NCBI GenBank assembly: GCA_002706095.1
Contig: PAJP01000025.1
Span: 1 to 64,000, forward strand
DNA from: Methylophaga sp.
GTDB lineage: Bacteria > Pseudomonadota > Gammaproteobacteria > Nitrosococcales > Methylophagaceae
Reading direction: 5' to 3'
DNA: 64,000 nt
Made by a program: the position numbers and the translations under genes. This document shows positions 2,709 through 60,424 of the stretch, one piece after another. The notes beneath the pieces were generated by a model. That model saw only the letters and a list, made by a program, of their open reading frames with translations, did no database searches and was not told the DNA's origin. Within the stretch, counting starts at the first letter, position 1. Each line of letters begins with the position of its first letter.

Positions 2709-3506
2709 ATGTTTAGTCGATTATCAACGATCACTTTTGCAGGATTAGTACTCATTCTAAGTAGTCACTCCATCTGGGCGGCCACACCAGAAGAGCCGGT
2801 ATGGCCAACGCTGAAACAAACTTACTTCGGTGACAGGACAATACAGGATGAGGCGGAAGATATATTAAGCTTGGAAGCACCAAAGCGTGCTGAAGATGCA
2901 GCCATTGTGCCCATCACCATAAAATCGTTAAAACCGCAATCGCAGGATAACTATATTGAGAACATCTATATCTTTATAGATAACAATCCAATGCCTTATT
3001 CTGCAAAATTCCATCTTTCACCTGAGCTAGGTAATGTTGATTTATCCACACGCATGCGAGTCGATCAATATACCTATGTTCGAGCTGTCGCTGAAATGAA
3101 CGATGGCAGTTTATACATGGTGTCACGTTTTGTTAAAGCTTCCGGTGGTTGCAGCGCACCCGCTGGCAAGGATGCCGCCGCCGCATTAGCTCGGTTAGGT
3201 AAAATGCAGTTGCGAATGCGTCAACCGAGCGTCGGTGAGCCCGTTCAGGCTCAGATGATCGTTAGCCACCCTAACTACAATGGGCTGCAATTTGATCAAA
3301 AAGCACGTAAATATATTCCGGCTCACTACATCGATAAAATGAATATCAGCTATAACGGACAAGCACTGATTACGGTGGATGCCGGTATTTCGATGAGTGA
3401 AGATCCAAGCATTCGTTTTACATTCACTCCTCAAGAGCATGGTAAGCTAGAAGCAAAAGTACATGACACAAAATCTCAAGAATTTAAAATAGAAAAAGAG
3501 ATCTGA
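2709..3506 (+). CDS. Quinoprotein dehydrogenase-associated SoxYZ-like carrier protein
   Basis: This is a secreted 265-residue fusion of a SoxY-like half and a SoxZ-like half, a family that accompanies PQQ dehydrogenases. A signal peptide is visible with likely cleavage after SIWA (residue 24). The swinging-arm type motif ASGGCSAPAG places the carrier cysteine at about residue 148, between the two halves. The SoxZ-like half follows from about residue 165. In true sulfur oxidation SoxYZ carries sulfur intermediates on this cysteine. In quinoprotein loci the cargo is not settled. No soxABCD genes occur here, but xoxF lies 1.9 kb away. The start has a strong GGGGAGAGAG ribosome site. A strong terminator follows. 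Confidence 0.85.
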   Translation: MFSRLSTITFAGLVLILSSHSIWAATPEEPVWPTLKQTYFGDRTIQDEAEDILSLEAPKRAEDAAIVPITIKSLKPQSQDNYIENIYIFIDNNPMPYSAKFHLSPELGNVDLSTRMRVDQYTYVRAVAEMNDGSLYMVSRFVKASGGCSAPAGKDAAAALARLGKMQLRMRQPSVGEPVQAQMIVSHPNYNGLQFDQKARKYIPAHYIDKMNISYNGQALITVDAGISMSEDPSIRFTFTPQEHGKLEAKVHDTKSQEFKIEKEI

Positions 3507-4166: not shown

Positions 4167-5033
4167 ATGAAAAAATTGTTATTGCACTTGGATACAGATC
4201 CAGTTGCCAGCACCTTCGACCAAGCAGTGGCTTATGATGCTGGTGTCGATAACATCATTGCTCATGGCGGCGCCACACGTGACAATGTCACACCACATGT
4301 TCACGGAATGATTTTTACCCGTGGTGGAAAAAACCTGAAAAATAGCGCTATTTTCATCGGTGGCTCAAATGTGCCTGCCAGTGATCTTGTCGGTAAAGCT
4401 GTAAAAAAAGCATTTTTCGGTCCTGTCAGCGTATCGGTAATGCTCGATCCAAATGGCTCGAATACAACAGCTGCAGCCATCGCTCGTAAAGTGCTTACTG
4501 ATTACGATGTCAAAGATAAAAATGTCGTCATTCTTGGCTCCGGTCCTGTAGGCCAGCGCACGGCTTTGTACATGCTCAGAGAAGGCGCAAAAAAAGTGAC
4601 GCTGACTTGTCGTAGCATGGAGAGAAGTAAAGCCACGGTCAAAGAAATGAAAGAGCACTACGGTGTCGATGTCATGCCAGGCGAAACACGAAGTGATGAA
4701 GCTGTTAAACAAATCGTATCTGATGCGCATGTGGTGATTGCCGCTGGTCCAGCTGGTGTTTGTGTTGTACCGGAAATGGCACTGGCCAATAACACATCAA
4801 TTGAAGTAGTTGCTGATGTTAACGCTGTCCCACCTCTAGGTGTTGCAGGCATGGAAGTCATGGATAACGGTGTCGAGAAAAATGGCATGCGTTACTACGG
4901 TGCAATAGCTATTGGTAACTTCAAAATGAAAGTTCATCGTGGTGCTATCGCCTCGCTCTTTGAAAGCAATGATGCCTTTCTAGATGAAACCACAATTTAC
5001 GATATAGCCTGCAAGATTGATAACGAACAGTGA
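4167..5033 (+). CDS. mtdA: NADP-type methylene-tetrahydromethanopterin/methylene-tetrahydrofolate dehydrogenase, MtdA-like
   Basis: This cytoplasmic enzyme oxidises methylene-H4MPT (and in known MtdA also methylene-H4F) to the methenyl form. At 288 residues it has the length of Methylorubrum MtdA. It shares the FTRGGK, SAIFIGG, KKAFFGP and MLDPNGSNTTAA stretches with MtdA, and the C-terminal VHRGAIASLFES. The dinucleotide fold is at residues 120-150 (GSGPVGQRTA). The second strand ends in CRSMERSK, with a basic residue where NADP enzymes hold the 2'-phosphate. The ATG follows GGCGGGAGAT. The stop overlaps the next start (GTGA), so it is translationally coupled to the beta-RFAP synthase gene. 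The MtdA subtype rests on remembered family sequences. Confidence 0.82.
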   Translation: MKKLLLHLDTDPVASTFDQAVAYDAGVDNIIAHGGATRDNVTPHVHGMIFTRGGKNLKNSAIFIGGSNVPASDLVGKAVKKAFFGPVSVSVMLDPNGSNTTAAAIARKVLTDYDVKDKNVVILGSGPVGQRTALYMLREGAKKVTLTCRSMERSKATVKEMKEHYGVDVMPGETRSDEAVKQIVSDAHVVIAAGPAGVCVVPEMALANNTSIEVVADVNAVPPLGVAGMEVMDNGVEKNGMRYYGAIAIGNFKMKVHRGAIASLFESNDAFLDETTIYDIACKIDNEQ

Positions 5034-6064
5034 AACAAAAAACTGCTGAAGCGGAGAGCCTAACGGCAATGCCAACTGTCACCGTTCAGGCTCCAGCCAG
5101 GCTTCATCTTGGATTTCTTGATTTAAATGCTGACATTGGTCGCAAGTTCGGTAGTATCGGACTTGCTATCAACAGCCACCACACAATCATTAATATATCT
5201 CCCGCTGAAAACTTCAATATTCAAGGCGCATATGTCACTGACAATATGCGATTGAAGATAAATCAAATATGTACGCTGTTTTATGAAAAGCTCGGGCAAC
5301 ATTTACCCCAAGCCAACCGTAGCGTCGCTATTTCTGTTAATTCAGCTATCCCAGAACATTCAGGGCTAGGCTCGGGAACACAACTCACTCTTACTCTCGG
5401 CGTCGCACTTGCGAAGTTTCATGGTTTATCCATTGATACGCCATTGCTTGCCAAAGAGTTGGGGCGTGGCAAACGTTCAGGAATTGGTATTGCTACTTTT
5501 GATCATGGCGGATTTGTGATTGATGGTGGCCTTAAGCCTCAGCAAACTGTCCCACCTGTTCTTGCTCAGCTTAACTTTCCTGAGAAATGGAAAATCGTGT
5601 TAGTAATGGATCCAAATCATCAAGGTATTCATGGCAGCGCTGAATTGCAGGCATTTAAACAACTGCCCGTGTTTCCTCAGGAAAATGCTCGCATCATCAG
5701 TCATATGACGCTGATGCAGCTATTACCTGCGCTCATTGAACAATCCTGTGATGAATTTGGTAAAGCCGTAACAGATATTCAAGCGTTAATTGGCGATCAT
5801 TTTGCCCAAGCACAAGGAGGCCGATACACCAGTAAACGTGTCGAAGCCTGTCTATTGCAGGCCCAAAAATGGGGGCATACAGGCATTGCTCAGAGCTCTT
5901 GGGGGCCGACAGGATGTATATTCGTCGAAAGTGATGCTCAGGCAGAGCAGCTGATCAAACAGCTTGAGACATTTGCTAAAACGACTTTTTCTGAGGATGA
6001 GGCACCTGTTTTTATTCAAACATCTGCAGATAATCATGGTGCAGTTGTTGAATCCTCTATGTAA
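5030..6064 (+). CDS. Beta-ribofuranosylaminobenzene 5'-phosphate synthase (beta-RFAP synthase)
   Basis: This GHMP-fold enzyme condenses 4-aminobenzoate (or a hydroxybenzoate in archaea) with PRPP. It is the first committed step of tetrahydromethanopterin synthesis. The N-terminal half shows PARLHLGFLDLN and, near residue 115, the glycine-rich PEHSGLGSGTQ loop typical of the GHMP group. The C-terminal half has GIAQSSWGPTG. The frame opens at a GTG overlapping the mtdA-like stop. An in-frame ATG at 5069, preceded by a GAGAG-like site, is an alternative start that would shorten the product by 13 residues. It sits between the two methylene-H4MPT dehydrogenase genes, so cofactor synthesis and use are encoded together. 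Confidence 0.9.
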   Translation: MKQKTAEAESLTAMPTVTVQAPARLHLGFLDLNADIGRKFGSIGLAINSHHTIINISPAENFNIQGAYVTDNMRLKINQICTLFYEKLGQHLPQANRSVAISVNSAIPEHSGLGSGTQLTLTLGVALAKFHGLSIDTPLLAKELGRGKRSGIGIATFDHGGFVIDGGLKPQQTVPPVLAQLNFPEKWKIVLVMDPNHQGIHGSAELQAFKQLPVFPQENARIISHMTLMQLLPALIEQSCDEFGKAVTDIQALIGDHFAQAQGGRYTSKRVEACLLQAQKWGHTGIAQSSWGPTGCIFVESDAQAEQLIKQLETFAKTTFSEDEAPVFIQTSADNHGAVVESSM

Positions 6065-6116
6065 CTGTGGCTATTATCATATTCCAGCCGTAATTTGATT
6101 ATTATAAGGATTAATT

Positions 6117-7022
6117 ATGTCCAAACGTTCGATTATTCACATGCTTAACCCAATGAAGCACAACAGTCCCTTTGACATTAACATGGCACTAGATGCGGGT
6201 TACGATGTATTGATTCCATATTCACATGTTGAGTTAAACGAAGTTGCAGGTCTAACTCAGGATGCTATTTTTTCACGTGGTCCCTCAGGTGTGAAAAAAA
6301 CCGGCATGTTCATCGGTGGACGTGATATCGGATTGGCGATGGACATGTTGGAATCAGCTAAAAAATCCATGGTTCCTCCTTTTGAAATTTCAGTTTTTGC
6401 TGATCCAAGTGGTGCTTTCACTACAGCTGCAGCGTTGGTGGCTTGTGTCGAGCGTGAACTGAAAAATAAATTTAAACAAGAATTAAAAGGCGCTAAAGCC
6501 GTTGTCTTCGGTGGAACCGGACCAGTGGGTATTGCTACAGCAGTTATTGCTGCCCTTCAGGGTGCAGAAACGGCCATTGTTGATCACTTCTCTATTGATA
6601 CTGCACTAGAGTTTGCTGCAGAAGCCAAAAAACGCTATGACGTTGATTTACGAGGCACGACAGCGGCTTCAGATGCTGATAAAGCCCGTTTATTGTACGA
6701 CGCAGACATCGTTTTCTGTGCAGCTAAAGCAGGGGTCCAGGTACTGAATGCATCTGTTTTACGTGATGCGACTAAACTCAAAGTGGCTGGCGATGTTAAT
6801 GCCGTGTCACCACTGGGTATCGAAGGCGTTAAATTGATGGACTTTGGCGCACCGTTGACACATGCCACTAATTCACCTGATGCCGTTGGTATTGGTGCAT
6901 TAGCTATTGGTGATGTTAAATACAAATTACAGCAAGCACTGTTAAGAGAGACATTAGAGTCAGAAAAACCTGTTTATCTTGATTTCCGTAATGCCTTCGA
7001 TGGTGCGCGTAAATTAGTCTAA
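6117..7022 (+). CDS. mtdB: NAD(P)-dependent methylene-tetrahydromethanopterin dehydrogenase MtdB
   Basis: This enzyme oxidises methylene-H4MPT to methenyl-H4MPT in the linear formaldehyde oxidation pathway. The N-terminus (SIIHMLNPMKHNSPFDINMA) and the blocks LTQDAIFSR, GMFIGG and GIGALAIGDVKY match MtdB of Methylorubrum. The length is 301 residues. The dinucleotide-binding GGTGPVGIATA is near residue 140. The following strand ends in IVDHFS, without the basic residue seen in the neighbouring MtdA-like protein, which fits use of NAD as well as NADP. The ribosome site is AAGGA seven bases before the ATG. It follows the beta-RFAP synthase gene by 52 bases and is probably in the same operon. Confidence 0.93.
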   Translation: MSKRSIIHMLNPMKHNSPFDINMALDAGYDVLIPYSHVELNEVAGLTQDAIFSRGPSGVKKTGMFIGGRDIGLAMDMLESAKKSMVPPFEISVFADPSGAFTTAAALVACVERELKNKFKQELKGAKAVVFGGTGPVGIATAVIAALQGAETAIVDHFSIDTALEFAAEAKKRYDVDLRGTTAASDADKARLLYDADIVFCAAKAGVQVLNASVLRDATKLKVAGDVNAVSPLGIEGVKLMDFGAPLTHATNSPDAVGIGALAIGDVKYKLQQALLRETLESEKPVYLDFRNAFDGARKLV

Positions 7023-7034
7023 TCTCATACAACG

Positions 7035-8153
7035 ATGGATGAAGAGCGGTTACCACTTCTCATTTTTGGTCAAACAGCTCGCTTTATTGCACAGTCAGCG
7101 GCTCAGCTTGGATACACAACCTGGGTCGTTGACTGTTTTGCAGATAGAGATACACAAAAAGTTGCTGATCGATGTATCCGTATCCCTCCCCTAGAACTGC
7201 TTTCCATAGAATCCATACTCACATCTTTTGAACTAATTACCCAACAACAGCGCTGCCTGCTGATTTTTTCTACTGGCATTGAACGCTTCTATGAACTCTT
7301 AAACTGCTTGCCCACACATATCCAAATTCTTGGTAATGATTTTCAAGTATTAGATAAATTAAGATCACCACAACGCTTTTTCCCTCTACTTCAACAACTT
7401 GACATTCCTTTTCCAGAAACCCATTGGGTTCAGGCTTTTGATAAAAAGAAAAAACGTTGGATAACAAAAGATCTGATGGGCAGCGGTGGTACACATATTC
7501 AACAGCCGAGTATATCTAACTACGTTGATCGCCATCTCATTTTTCAGGAATATATCAATGGTCGGTCAGGCTCAGTCAGTTTTCTTGCTGACGGTGAGTC
7601 TGTGTTCATCTTTGGGTTTAACGAACAGATACACACAGAAACATTTCAGCTACAGCAAATCATTAATCACTTTGATATCAGCCAGTCTTCTAAAGCAACT
7701 CTTGCTAAGGCACTAGAAAAGCTTGTAACAGCAATCACTTTTCGCGGTTATGGCAGTCTCGACTTTATGATTGACGAGTTAGCTAATATTTATATCCTTG
7801 AGCTGAATCCAAGACTTTCCGCTTCAGCGGAGCTTTACGCCAATAATACGGATATGTTGCGTTGGCATATTCAGGCTTGTATTGGGAAACTACCTGCTGA
7901 AATCCAACAGCAAAATAGTGAAATGACGAACGTTACCAGTCTCTCATACCTTTTTGCAGATAAAGCATTATTCGTAAAGAGCAAGGCAACGTGGCCTGTT
8001 GAGACTCGGGATATTCCCCACGCCAGACAGAAGATTCAGCCTGGCGAGCCTGTGTGCACAGTACTTGTTGAAGCTCAATCACATCTGGATTGCGATAATA
8101 AACGTCATCAAGTGGAAACTGAGATAAGGAAAAATTGTCTTTTTTCTGCTTGA
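7035..8153 (+). CDS. ATP-grasp enzyme in the H4MPT gene cluster
   Basis: This 372-residue protein has a pre-ATP-grasp domain (PLLIFGQTARFIAQSA at the N-terminus) and then an ATP-grasp fold. The fold includes KDLMGSGGTHI (about 150-160), HLIFQEYINGRSGSVSF (about 172-187) and the metal-binding LELNPRLSASAEL (about 255-267). ATP-grasp enzymes join a carboxylate to an amine or thiol with ATP. It begins 12 bases after mtdB, so it is very likely cotranscribed. ATP-grasp proteins of unassigned role are known in methylotroph H4MPT clusters. A role in adding glutamate-like or other groups to the pterin side chain is a reasonable inference. The substrate cannot be read from the sequence. Confidence 0.82.
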   Translation: MDEERLPLLIFGQTARFIAQSAAQLGYTTWVVDCFADRDTQKVADRCIRIPPLELLSIESILTSFELITQQQRCLLIFSTGIERFYELLNCLPTHIQILGNDFQVLDKLRSPQRFFPLLQQLDIPFPETHWVQAFDKKKKRWITKDLMGSGGTHIQQPSISNYVDRHLIFQEYINGRSGSVSFLADGESVFIFGFNEQIHTETFQLQQIINHFDISQSSKATLAKALEKLVTAITFRGYGSLDFMIDELANIYILELNPRLSASAELYANNTDMLRWHIQACIGKLPAEIQQQNSEMTNVTSLSYLFADKALFVKSKATWPVETRDIPHARQKIQPGEPVCTVLVEAQSHLDCDNKRHQVETEIRKNCLFSA

Positions 8154-53416: not shown

Positions 53417-54460
53417 TTAGCCGTATCTCTCAACCATTTTGCCTAAGGAAACAGGCACAATTTTGCCAGCATGACCTGCGCTGCCAAACGCCTGATAGCG
53501 CGCTTCACAAATTGTTTGCATAGCTTGAGTAGCTGCTTTAAAGAATTTTCTTGGATCAAATTCAGCTTTATTGTGTTCATCAGTGAGAAACTGACGAATG
53601 GATCCCGTTGATGCCATACGCAAATCGGTGTCAATATTCACCTTACGCACGCCGTATTGAATACCTTCAACAATTTCTTCCACTGGTACACCATAAGTTT
53701 GGCCAATATCACCACCGTGTGTATTAATGATTTTGAGCCAATCTTGCGGCACAGAGCTTGAACCATGCATCACAAAATGCGTATCAGGTAGTTTTTGTTG
53801 CAATGTTTTTAAGTGGCTAATGGCCAGTACATCGCCTGTCGGTGGTTGTGTAAATTTATAAGCACCATGACTGGTGCCAATAGCCACAGCTAAAGCATCT
53901 ACCTGAGTGATTTTGACGAATTCCACTGCCTCTTCAGGATCCGTCAGTAATTGACTGTGGTCTAAGGCTGAATCAGCACCATGACCATCTTCTTCGCCCA
54001 TCATGCCTGTTTCCAGCGAGCCCAGACAGCCCAATTCACCCTCAACAGACACACCACAAGCGTGGGCAATATCGGCCACCGTTTTTGTCACCTGACTGTT
54101 GTATTCAAAGTCTGAAGGCGTTTTCATATCCTCACGTAAAGAGCCATCCATCATCACAGAGGTAAAACCTGACTGAATCGAGCGAATACAAATATCCGGG
54201 CTGGCACCATGATCCTGATGCAGAACGATAGGAATATGAGGATAGGCTTCGACTGCTGCGAGTACCAAGTGACGTAAAAATGGCTCACCGGCGTATTTTC
54301 TGGCGCCAGCACTGGCTTGCATGATCACCGGACTGTCTACCTTGTCAGCCGCTTGCATGATGGCATGTACTTGCTCCATATTACTGACATTAAATGCGGG
54401 AACAGCAAAATCATGTTCAGCTGCATAGTCTAATAATTGTCGCAACGTAATCAGGGCCAT
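53417..54460 (-). CDS. fba: Fructose-bisphosphate aldolase, class II
   Basis: This zinc aldolase interconverts fructose 1,6-bisphosphate and two trioses. At 347 aa it is of the CbbA-type class II subfamily. The zinc ligands lie in [11 protein letters not shown] and [11 protein letters not shown]. In a ribulose-monophosphate methylotroph it splits hexose phosphates made from formaldehyde. It is the last gene of tkt-gap-pgk-pyk-fba, 38 bases after pyk. Confidence 0.96.
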
Positions 54461-54498
54461 AAAGCCTCCTGTAAAGAAAAGTTTATTTTGAGGTGAGC

Positions 54499-55953
54499 TT
54501 AGTCTATCTGTCTGGGTTCAGCCATATCTCCCACCCTGACAATTTTCATGGCATTGGTGCTGCCCTGAATTTCAAGATCACCTTTGGTTATGATGACAAT
54601 ATCCCCCTCAGCAACGACACCCCGGCGCACAAGTTCATCAATCATCTCTTTATTCATCCGTGCATGGTCGTGATGTTCTACATCAAATTCCAACGGATAT
54701 ACACCTCGATATAAGGTGACTTTTCGTGCCGTTTTTTCGTGAGGCGTCAGGGCAAAGATGGGGATGCCTGAACTAATTCTGGACATCCATAATGTGGTCG
54801 CTCCTGAGTCTGTCAACGCTGCGATCGCTTTGACATCAAGATGATTTGCAGTATACATCGCAGCCATCGCGATGGCTTCATCCATGCGTTCAAAATGTGA
54901 GTCTATCCGGTGTCGTGATACCCGTATCTCACGCTCCAGCTCAGCTTGAAGACAGACACGGTCAACCGCTGCTATGGTTTTGATCGGGTTTTTGCCTACA
55001 GCGGTTTCTCCGGATAGCATCACGGCATCCGTGCCATCCAGTACGGCATTAGCCACATCAAAGACTTCTGCCCTGGTCGGAATCGGATTGGTGATCATGG
55101 ATTCCATCATTTGTGTGGCAGTGATGGTCAGGCAGTTTTTCTTACGAGCCAGACCGATGATACGTTTCTGAATAGGCGGTAATGCGGCATCGCCCATCTC
55201 CACCCCCAGATCACCGCGCGCCACCATAATCGCATCCGTCGCCGCAATAATTTCGTCAATCGCCTCAACGGCTTCGGCACGTTCGATTTTTGCCACGATG
55301 GCACCATAGCCGCCTGCATCACGTAACAATTGTCTGGCCTGATGAATATCATCAGCTGAGCGAGGGAAAGACACGGCAAGGTAATCCGCCTGCATACTGG
55401 CAGCAGTCTTTATGTCTTGTTTATCTTTATCTGTTAAGGCTTTTGCAGAAAGGCCGCCACCAAGACGATTGATACCCTTGTTATTGGAGAGAACGCCACC
55501 AAAACTCACTGTTGTATGAATTTTATGTGCATCGACCGTATCCACTCGTAACACGATTCTACCGTCATCTAACAGCAAGGTATCTTTCGCTTTGACGTCT
55601 CGTGGTAGCGCTTTGTAGTCGATACCGACTTGTTGTTCGTTTCCATCCTCTTTGCCAAGCTGGGCATCCAGAATGAAAGGTGCTCCCTCCTCCAGTACTA
55701 CCGAACCTTGCTTGAATCGAGAAATACGAATTTTAGGCCCCTGCAGATCAGCCAGAATACCGACTTGTTTATTCTGCAAACGGGCACGTTCTCTGACAAG
55801 CTCAGCAAGTGCAAGATGTGTGTCAGACTCACCATGAGAAAAGTTGAGCCTGACCACATTCATTCCGGCTGCGATCATCGCATCCAGTACTTGAGGGCTT
55901 TGTGTGGCCGGCCCTAAAGTCGCAACAATTTTTGTTCGTCTTATGGCCGTCAC
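54499..55953 (-). CDS. pyk: Pyruvate kinase
   Basis: This is a 484-residue type that makes pyruvate and ATP from phosphoenolpyruvate. It opens [17 protein letters not shown] and has [12 protein letters not shown], the conserved Lys region, and [20 protein letters not shown]. It starts 11 bases after pgk and so is cotranscribed. Confidence 0.97.
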
Positions 55954-55964
55954 ATGAAACTCCT

Positions 55965-57152
55965 TTATGATTGTGCGGCGCGCTGCTCCAGAATATCAAC
56001 AGCAGGTAACTTCTTGCCTTCAAGAAACTCTAGAAATGCACCGCCACCGGTTGAAATATAAGAAATATCGTCACAAATTTTATATTTAGACACTGCCGCT
56101 AATGTATCACCACCACCAGCAATAGAAAATGCATCAGACTCAGCGATGGCCATCGCGACTTCTTTTGTACCTTCACCAAACTGATTAAATTCAAATACAC
56201 CCACAGGACCGTTCCAAACAATGGTACCGGCATTTTTTAAAATTTCTGTTAAAGCAGCGGCAGATTTTGGACCAATATCAAAAATCATGTCATCAGCCAC
56301 AATATCAGCCACTTTTTTGGTTTCCGCTTCTGCATTCTCAGCAAAGTGCTTTCCACATACGACATCAACAGGGACCGGAATATCCCCGCCTCGATTTTGG
56401 GCTTCTGCGCGTAATTTTTTACAGGTATCAATCAAATCTTCTTCATAAAGTGAATTACCCACTTGATAACCTTCGGCAGCAATAAAGGTGTTGGCGATCC
56501 CGCCGCCGACGATAAGCTGATCCACTTTTTTTGATAATGATTCTAGAACGGTTAATTTTGTTGATACTTTTGAGCCACCCACAATGGCGACAAGTGGTCT
56601 TGCTGGATTATCTAATGCCTTAGCCAGTGCCTCCAATTCTGTTGCCAGTAGTGGACCAGCACAAGCAATGGGCGCATACTTCGCCACACCATGAGTCGAA
56701 GCCTGAGCACGATGGGCGGTGCCAAACGCGTCCATCACAAACACATCACATAACTTCGCCATGCGACGAGATAAAGCTTCATCATTCGCCTTTTCACCCT
56801 TATTAAATCGCACATTTTCGCAAAGTACGACTTCACCCGCTTCAACAGGAATGAACTCGGGTTCCAACCAGTTTTGTTCAAGTCGCACCGGGCGATCTAA
56901 TAAAGCAGATAAATAATTGGCTACCGGCGCCAATGAGTATTGATGTTCGTATTCACCTTCAGTGGGTCTGCCAAGGTGTGACATGATCATGACTTTTGCA
57001 CCTGCTTTTAATGCCATTTCGATAGTAGGCAATGAAGCATGAATTCGGGTGCCATCAGCAACCACACCTTTTTTCAGTGGCACATTGAGATCCTGGCGAA
57101 TCAGTACACGCTTACCCGCCAAATCCAGATCAGCCATCTTGATTACAGACAT
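55965..57152 (-). CDS. pgk: Phosphoglycerate kinase
   Basis: It moves the phosphate from 1,3-bisphosphoglycerate to ADP. The 395-residue protein has [16 protein letters not shown] at the N-terminus, [11 protein letters not shown], and [11 protein letters not shown] in the middle. The nucleotide region [18 protein letters not shown] is near the C-terminus. It lies 131 bases after gap, with a terminator between. Confidence 0.98.
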
Positions 57153-57226
57153 GATGATTTTCCTCGTGAATAATTAAAATTGTGACTTTCATCACAAAGT
57201 ATAACGTTCTAGAACAGTTTGACCAT

Positions 57227-57260
57227 AAAAAAAGGCTTTCTGGATTCAGAAAGCCTTCGT
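57227..57260 (-). terminator. Terminator after gap
   Basis: AGGCTTTCTG and CAGAAAGCCT pair around GATT, and the minus strand continues with seven T. It divides gap from pgk, so pgk-pyk-fba probably has its own promoter within the 131-base gap or depends on read-through. Confidence 0.9.
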
Positions 57261-57283
57261 TTTTTTATTGGAAAAAGAATGAA

Positions 57284-58312
<1,029 letters not shown>

Positions 58313-58365
58313 CTAAGAACTGAAATCTCAGTTTGAAATTTCACTTATTAGACTTTCGAGCTTTA

Positions 58366-58401
58366 GAGAGAGAAAAACCAGTGAGCAGATGCCCACTGGT
58401 T
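58366..58401 (-). terminator. Terminator after tkt
   Basis: On the minus strand AACCAGTG pairs with CACTGGTT around ten bases and is followed by TTTTTCTCTC. The T run is interrupted, so strength is moderate. It separates tkt from gap. Confidence 0.7.
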
Positions 58402-58435
58402 CAATCTCTTTACTTCATTTCTAAACCAGTAATAA

Positions 58436-60424
58436 TTACAGTACTGATTTAACTGTCTTAACGACATTTTCAACGGTGAAGCCGAAGTGTTTCATCAACA
58501 CACCACCTGGCGCAGATTCACCAAATGTGTCGATACCAACAACACCACCTTCCAGGCCAACATACTTGCGCCAGAAGTCAGTCACACCCGCTTCAACAGA
58601 TACACGTTTAACACCTGGTGTTAATACGCTGTCTTTGTAAGCTTGGTCTTGACGATCAAACACGTTAGTAGAAGGCATAGAAACAACGCGTGCTTTCACA
58701 CCGTCAGCTTTCAGTTCTTCTTGTGCTTTAACCGCTAAGTCAACTTCAGAACCTGTCGCGATAATGATGACATCCGCTGCGCCGCCTTCTGCTTCAGACA
58801 GAACATAAGCACCTTTACGGATACCTTCAAAGTCAGCTGTGTCGTGTTTACGACCAGGAATACCTTGACGGCTTAATACTAAGCTTGAAGGACCATCTTT
58901 ACGTTCAACCGCAGCAACCCAAGCAACAGCCACTTCAGTTTCATCAGAAGGACGCCATACATCCATGTTAGGAATGTAACGCAGACCCGCTGTGTTTTCG
59001 ATTGGTTGGTGAGTAGGACCGTCTTCACCCTGACCAATAGAGTCATGAGTTAAGATAGCGATTGTGCGTTGTTTCATCAATGCCGCCATACGCAGTGCAG
59101 ACTTAGCATAGTCAGAGAACATGTGGAACGTACCACCGTAAGGCAGTAAACCACCGTGCAGTGCCATACCATTCATGATGGCATACATACCAAACTCACG
59201 AACACCGTATGAAATGCAGTTACCTGACTCTTTACCAGAAACATGTTTGAAGCTTGAACAGCTTGTCAGATTAGAACCTGTTAAGTCAGCAGAACCACCG
59301 ATAAATTCTGGTAATTCAGGTGCTAAAGCAGTGATAACGTTTTGTGATGCTTTACGTGAAGCAACGCTTTCTGCTTTATCGTTGAAATCAGCGATCATTT
59401 TATCTGTGAATTGTTTCCAGTCAGCGGGTAATTCACCTGCCATGCGGCGTTTAAATTCAGCAGCTAATTCTGGGTATTCAGCAGCATAAGCGTCGAATTT
59501 TTTGTTCCATTCAGCTTCCGCAGCATCACCTTTCGCTTTCGCATCCCAACCCGCATAAACGTCTTCAGGAATAACAAAAGGTTCGTAGTCCCAACCTAAC
59601 TCTTTACGAGTTAATGCAACTTCTTCTTCACCTAATGCCGCACCATGGCAATCATGGCTAGCTGATTTGTTTGGTGAACCGAAACCGATGATGGTTTTAC
59701 AGCAGATCAGTGAAGGTTTGTCAGTGACTTTTTTCGCTGCTTCAATAGCTGCATTGATTGCATCAGAGTCGTGACCATCTACTGATTGAACGTGCCAGCC
59801 GTAAGCTTCGAAACGTTTAACAGTGTCATCTGTGTACCAGCCATCAATGTGACCGTCGATAGAGATGTTGTTGTCATCCCAGAATGCGATCAGATTACCC
59901 AGACCCCATGTACCAGCAAGAGCACATGCTTCATGAGAAACACCTTCCATTAAACAACCATCGCCCATGAAGACATAAGTGTGGTGGTTAACGATGTCAT
60001 GACCTGGCTTGTTGAATTGATCAGCCATCAGTTTTTCAGCCATCGCAAAACCAACACCGTTGGTGATACCTTGACCTAATGGACCTGTTGTTGTTTCAAC
60101 ACCTGGTGCATAACCATACTCTGGGTGACCCGCACATTGTGAATGTAATTGACGGAATGTTTTGAGTGAATCCATTGGCAAGTCATAACCTGACAAATGC
60201 AACAATGAATAAATCAACATTGAACCGTGACCATTAGATAGGATGAAACGGTCACGATCAGCCCAATTTGGGTTATTTGGGTTGTGTTTTAAATGGTCAT
60301 TCCATAACACTTCGGCAATATCTGCCATACCCATAGGCGCACCGGGGTGACCCGAGTTTGCCTTTTGTACTGCATCCATGCTGAGCGCACGGATTGCATT
60401 AGCTAAATGTCTACGTGTAGCCAT
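58436..60424 (-). CDS. tkt: Transketolase
   Basis: This thiamine diphosphate enzyme moves two-carbon units between sugar phosphates and regenerates the pentose acceptor of the ribulose monophosphate cycle. It has 662 aa. It opens [27 protein letters not shown]. The diphosphate-binding site is [33 protein letters not shown]. The cofactor-activating Glu lies in VREFGM. It starts 26 bases after the thioredoxin-like gene. Confidence 0.97.

Follow-up and report, generated by a model that had tools for sequence, protein, structure and literature searches.

What does an MtdA-like dehydrogenase do when it is kept beside MtdB, among genes of H4MPT biosynthesis? The question arises from a locus of Methylophaga sp. 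(Methylophagaceae; contig PAJP01000025.1), analysed as one stretch of 64,000 nucleotides, here called the window. The first-pass annotation had proposed that two different Mtd genes flank mptG, and both open reading frames are found on either side of it, Table 1. The loop strings that it quoted, CRSMERSK and IVDHFS, are present in the two proteins.

Table 1. Genes of the cluster, with positions in the window.
Feature	Coordinates	Strand	Description
MtdA-like dehydrogenase (called MphA in this analysis)	4167..5033	+	288 aa; Mpt_N match; NADP-type loop T-C-R, residues 147-149
mptG, beta-RFAP synthase (H4MPT biosynthesis)	5030..6064	+	TIGR00144; GHMP kinase domains; GTG start overlaps mtdA-like stop
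MtdB, methylene-H4MPT dehydrogenase	6117..7022	+	301 aa; Mpt_N match; NAD-type loop V-D-H
ATP-grasp ligase, probable H4MPT biosynthesis gene	7035..8153	+	PF02655

The locus and its conservation in Methylophagaceae

Both dehydrogenases belong to the Mtd family according to the Pfam profile Mpt_N (cut-off 27 bits), with E 4e-28 and 97.8 bits for the MtdA-like protein and E 8.5e-38 and 128.8 bits for MtdB. They are the only Mpt_N matches in the whole genome. The MtdA-like protein matches solved MtdA (chains 6tge, 1lu9 and 6tlk, which we take to be MtdA of Methylorubrum/Methylobacterium extorquens) with E about 3e-71 and 46% identity, so its fold is beyond doubt; the match of MtdB is weaker, E 4e-35. 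The product of mptG scores 179 bits with TIGR00144 (cut-off 113.5) and 205 bits with NF040726, below the cut-off of 328.

The mtdA-like gene and mptG overlap by 4 bp, and gaps of 52 bp and 12 bp separate mptG from mtdB and mtdB from the ATP-grasp gene. This spacing suggests that the four genes form a single transcription unit. A promoter scan of the window found 10 candidates where shuffled sequences gave 10.7, and adds nothing on the operon structure. Upstream of the C1 genes, positions 2709-3506 encode a SoxY-SoxZ-like fusion, a carrier of the type associated with quinoprotein dehydrogenases (TIGR04557, 293.6 bits, cut-off 140); two family loci (L053 and L056) show two tandem matches of this type.

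The pair is retained throughout the family. An Mpt_N match was found in 54 of the 57 family genomes; 51 contain both Mtd types, as judged by match position, and each genome that has an MtdA-type gene has just one. Relatives were searched by a contig scan from which the best 80 matches were listed, and less common members in other groups may have escaped it. In all of the best 40 of these (69-98% identity) the MtdA-like gene is followed by MtdB on the same strand, with 1911-2137 bp from start to start, and this order is therefore not due to chance; in one relative (L082) the contig ends within MtdB. mptG was detected in 40/40 of the same loci and the ATP-grasp gene in 38/40. All four genes are also present in 20/20 loci taken from family genomes, the organisms of which largely overlap with the 40 relatives. 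From their identity and gene order, the 40 loci appear to be Methylophagaceae. The MtdA-like protein of M. aminisulfidivorans (L058) is 98% identical to that of the window, and matches 41-80 of those listed have at most 50% identity.

The mean pairwise identity is 78.1% for the MtdA-like protein, 77.3% for MtdB and 54.1% for mptG (18 sequences each, omitting L053, L054 and L040), i.e. the MtdA-like protein is conserved as strongly as MtdB and more than mptG. The ATP-grasp gene changes fastest of the four, with a mean of 40.8% (18 sequences), though its position is kept (homologues in L038-L057).

In two family genomes, one of the same species (G036, loci L054 and L249-L252) and one other (G034, locus L053), mtdB is broken by a homopolymer change at window position 6294. 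Taken at face value, this would leave the MtdA-like protein as the sole such dehydrogenase. However, at nine places over the 64 kb an A/T run of G036 is one base shorter than in the window, and six of these places fall in open reading frames; for this genome the split is far more probably due to a sequencing error.

Phylogeny, cofactor loops and partner genes

To place the two proteins we used the tree that the first-pass annotation had suggested. In a tree of 127 sequences the family splits into an MtdA side and an MtdB side with a support of 100, the MtdA-like protein falls on the first and MtdB on the second, and the MtdA-like sequences of the family form one clade. A tree of 62 sequences, in which the MtdA side with the Methylophagaceae and solved MtdA has a support of 100/100, divides that side into three clades: Methylophagaceae (100/99), Gemmatimonadota (100/99) and canonical MtdA including solved MtdA (99/90). 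With the MtdB side as outgroup, the Methylophagaceae proteins lie outside the clade of solved MtdA. Nesting them among the canonical MtdA of gamma- and betaproteobacteria is rejected (AU p 0.012). We make no claim on the order of the three clades, because grouping Methylophagaceae with Gemmatimonadota (AU p 0.51) and with all canonical MtdA (p 0.496) are equally good. Canonical MtdA shares a mean identity of 46.4% with the MtdA-like protein, two Gemmatimonadota sequences share 47.5% and the MtdB-side groups 30-32%.

The smaller tree holds 14 of the 41 family sequences, 18 of the 38 canonical ones and one from Chloroflexota (L122); it omits L246, which is MtdB-like, and L247 and L248, which repeat L131 and L120. 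Mtd frames shorter than 270 aa, among them MtdB of L082, were dropped, and MtdA-like sequences beyond 20 are left out of the larger tree. Long branches between the MtdA and MtdB sides were flagged in both trees. MtdB of the window forms a clade (support 100) with 11 sequences from other genomes, mostly Methylococcaceae, in a tree that holds no biochemically studied MtdB; the name follows a passage of PMC6548844. Five other MtdB-side proteins (L190, L192, L197, L198 and L200) sit on a long separate branch (support 99) and have Q-L at the cofactor-loop positions (5/5); they are possibly a further Mtd subfamily.

In Rossmann folds, use of NAD is usually marked by an acidic residue where the second strand ends, and use of NADP by an arginine at the same place. 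The difference between the two loops seen in the first-pass annotation extends to the whole family: at residues 148-149 (MtdA-like numbering) 41/41 MtdA-like sequences have S/C-R, and 40/40 MtdB sequences have D-H. Canonical MtdA has S/G-R at these positions in 38/38 sequences and the MtdA-side proteins of Gemmatimonadota S-R in 19/19, i.e. the arginine of the NADP loop is found in every family and every canonical sequence. These residues point to NADP as the cofactor of the MtdA-like protein and NAD as that of MtdB. Residues 195, 221 and 254 separate the Methylophagaceae clade from canonical MtdA and are common to Gemmatimonadota. Positions fixed differently from canonical MtdA were tried as evidence on the substrate and dropped, as the Chloroflexota sequence L122 has the same letters at 195, 218, 221 and 254. 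Its genome has an fch match, so residues 195, 221 and 254 are silent on the substrate.

The first-pass annotation saw no gene of the H4F cycle and suggested a genome search for fch and ftfL. For the window this is correct, but the genome has both ftfL and folD. The search for fch (PF04961) gave no match in this genome nor in any of the 57 family genomes, 36 of which have a completeness of 90% or more. In contrast, 38/40 genomes of the other MtdA-type matches (ranks 41-80 of the matches listed) have PF04961. Of these, 37 have a frame of 207-262 aa, accompanied in 31 cases by an Mpt_N gene nearby on the same contig; the remaining match, in a Gemmatimonas genome (G079), is a frame of 512 aa and probably FTCD. 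Among the family genomes, ftfL is present in 52/57 and folD in 37 of the 40 searched, compared with folD in 17/40 genomes of the other MtdA-type matches. FolD carries out the same NADP-linked methylene-H4F step in most bacteria. Given its frequency in the family, the H4F dehydrogenase and cyclohydrolase steps are covered without MtdA. Methylophagaceae thus lack the usual MtdA-Fch module, which FolD can replace.

Related arrangements in other bacteria

In a sample of 200 Gemmatimonadota genomes, 19 have Mpt_N, with one match each. Twenty loci were examined (the 19 and G079), and in 19 of them an MtdA-side gene lies near at least one further gene of the operon found in L131 and L120; two of the 19 loci (L247 and L248) supplied the query genes themselves. 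The remaining locus, L246, holds an MtdB-like gene and has no such neighbours. Pfam identifies query genes of this operon as Fae (225 bits), DUF1464, an ATP-grasp protein and an amidohydrolase, and gives no match for the query gene that this analysis calls fhcB; the name fhcA is likewise ours. A lone Mtd gene beside fae should serve methylene-H4MPT. None of the other 38 MtdA-type loci has these H4MPT markers in the flanks taken, which reach 5 kb on either side in 21 of all 40 loci. PF04961 is found in 16 of the 19 Gemmatimonadota genomes with Mpt_N. The best frame is at least 447 aa long in 11 of the 16, presumably the fused FTCD of histidine breakdown, and 216-297 aa long, with weaker scores, in the other five, which may encode a stand-alone Fch-like protein.

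Of the 40 comparison genomes (those of the other MtdA-type matches), 14 have two neighbouring MtdB-side genes. Ten of the 14 pairs were examined, and each has one copy with G-R and one with D in the loop, the G-R copy first (10/10). Another set of methylotrophs therefore holds an Arg/Asp pair, drawn from a different subfamily. The genomes are mostly Methylococcaceae or their relatives (e.g. L181, Methylotuvimicrobium buryatense), with one Methyloversatilis MAG (G067).

Function and comparison with known systems

Gene order, family-wide retention, loop residues, the lack of an fch match and the separate clade are direct observations, and the substrate, cofactor use and physiological role described below are our reading of the sequences. 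We consider it rather likely that the MtdA-like protein acts on methylene-H4MPT as an NADP-dependent dehydrogenase beside the NAD-dependent MtdB, MtdC-like in its role. In favour of this are the gene order, the missing fch together with the frequency of folD, the loop residues, a conservation equal to that of MtdB, the H4MPT-type neighbours of MtdA-side genes in Gemmatimonadota and the adjacent Arg/Asp pairs found mostly in Methylococcaceae. Formaldehyde bound as methylene-H4MPT would be oxidised to methenyl-H4MPT by either enzyme, and the same step could be steered to NADPH for biosynthesis or to NADH for respiration as the cell needs. A side activity with H4F is possible. The proposal of the first-pass annotation, a source of NADPH in a RuMP organism, is retained as the best reading, in these qualified terms. 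A run of genes for transketolase, GAPDH, phosphoglycerate kinase, pyruvate kinase and a class II aldolase at 53417-60424 on the minus strand is consistent with RuMP rearrangement and lower glycolysis. The NADP and H4MPT reading is slightly weakened by the possible Fch-like protein in five Gemmatimonadota genomes and by fhcB, with its lack of a Pfam match. The retention of ftfL and the PF04961 matches of many Gemmatimonadota genomes, mostly in long fused frames, also speak against it, and the main contrary evidence is the proteome of M. thiooxydans.

That proteome would suit a protein that is an H4F enzyme in vivo. Here methylene-H4F, from the methyl-H4F of DMS or methylated amines, would be oxidised with NADP, FolD would act as the cyclohydrolase, FtfL or PurU would release formate, and the site beside mptG would be historical. 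The frequency of ftfL and folD agrees with such a route, but FolD already does the NADP-linked step in most bacteria, fch is missing from every family genome searched, and the place among H4MPT genes is kept in all 40 loci; we find the route unlikely. According to the passage in PMC6548844, the MtdA protein of M. thiooxydans rises 5.3-fold and formate-H4F ligase 2.2-fold on DMS, from which its authors infer H4F oxidation. The passage gives no locus tag, and this MtdA is probably the orthologue of the MtdA-like protein, since each family genome with an MtdA-type gene has one. An H4MPT operon is in itself compatible with H4F use, because M. extorquens MtdA accepts both H4F and H4MPT (stated in part of PMC539335).

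The protein might also be bifunctional in vivo and serve both pools with NADP, as M. extorquens MtdA does in vitro. The 46% identity is to an enzyme that is described as methylene H4F/H4MPT dehydrogenase (in part of PMC539335), and both pathways occur in the genus (by the passage in PMC6548844). However, the missing fch partner speaks against a major function with H4F and the residues give no evidence for either substrate, which leaves this the least probable of the alternatives. We are less doubtful, though still doubtful, of the idea that the protein is MtdC of the planctomycete class, by descent or transfer, which overlaps with the NADP-dependent H4MPT dehydrogenase favoured above: the role is the same and the family label differs. 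The MtdA-side clade outside canonical MtdA and the H4MPT gene neighbours support it, as does the description of planctomycete MtdC as a group apart from both MtdA and MtdB, but the same passage reports MtdC from no organisms other than planctomycetes and one uncharacterised microbe (PMC3505017). An MtdA-side sequence in an MtdB-like place among H4MPT genes, as would suit MtdC, is what we observe. A search for planctomycete MtdC found no planctomycetes among 36 plasmid records and no relative in viral contigs.

A wider scheme can be drawn tentatively, and we would put its chances somewhat below even. Methylophagaceae would hold an unrecognised H4MPT-specific, NADP-linked class of the MtdA side; taken with Gemmatimonadota, the MtdA side would have served H4MPT first, with the H4F- and fch-linked MtdA derived; and two gammaproteobacterial groups of RuMP methylotrophs would have built an NAD/NADP pair for the same step from different parts.

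The co-occurrence of mtdA and mtdB has been published before: mtdA, mtdB and folD are named jointly in a figure legend on a mussel symbiont of the Methylophagaceae (PMC10199937), and mtdB, folD and fhs are listed, with the RuMP cycle present, for M. thiooxydans (PMC6548844). A 2012 review held that MtdA occurs only in serine-cycle methylotrophs (PMC3505017). In titles, abstracts and passages of the open-licence literature, with subscription papers mostly outside the search, we found no account of the lack of fch, of the clade of its own or of the present operon. At least one proteomic study assigns MtdA of Methylophaga to folate and builds its DMS route on this (passage in PMC6548844). Should it use H4MPT, both the carbon route and the NADPH balance would change for these marine bacteria that live on methanol and DMS, and mtdA by itself would no longer reliably indicate H4F or serine-cycle metabolism.

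Compared with MtdA of M. extorquens, the Methylophaga protein has 46% identity, lies on the same side of the tree (100/100) and shares the arginine in the cofactor loop. It differs in lying outside that clade, in a genome with no fch match, and in having mptG and mtdB as neighbours and not serine-cycle genes. The MtdA-side proteins of Gemmatimonadota (L120, L131, L229-L245) resemble it in identity (47% for L120 and L131), H4MPT-type neighbours, a distantly related ATP-grasp gene and the arginine loop, but each is the sole Mpt_N match of its genome, adjoins fae and belongs to a separate clade. The pairs of the Methylococcaceae type also have Arg and Asp loop copies side by side with the Arg copy first, whereas both copies are MtdB-side and the genomes hold canonical MtdA as well. 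From Vorholt et al. in 2005, planctomycete MtdC is reportedly specific for NADP and H4MPT, closer to MtdA in sequence and MtdB-like in role. The Methylophaga protein would be like it in these traits, a comparison by description and not by sequence, and MtdC is the nearest known kind.
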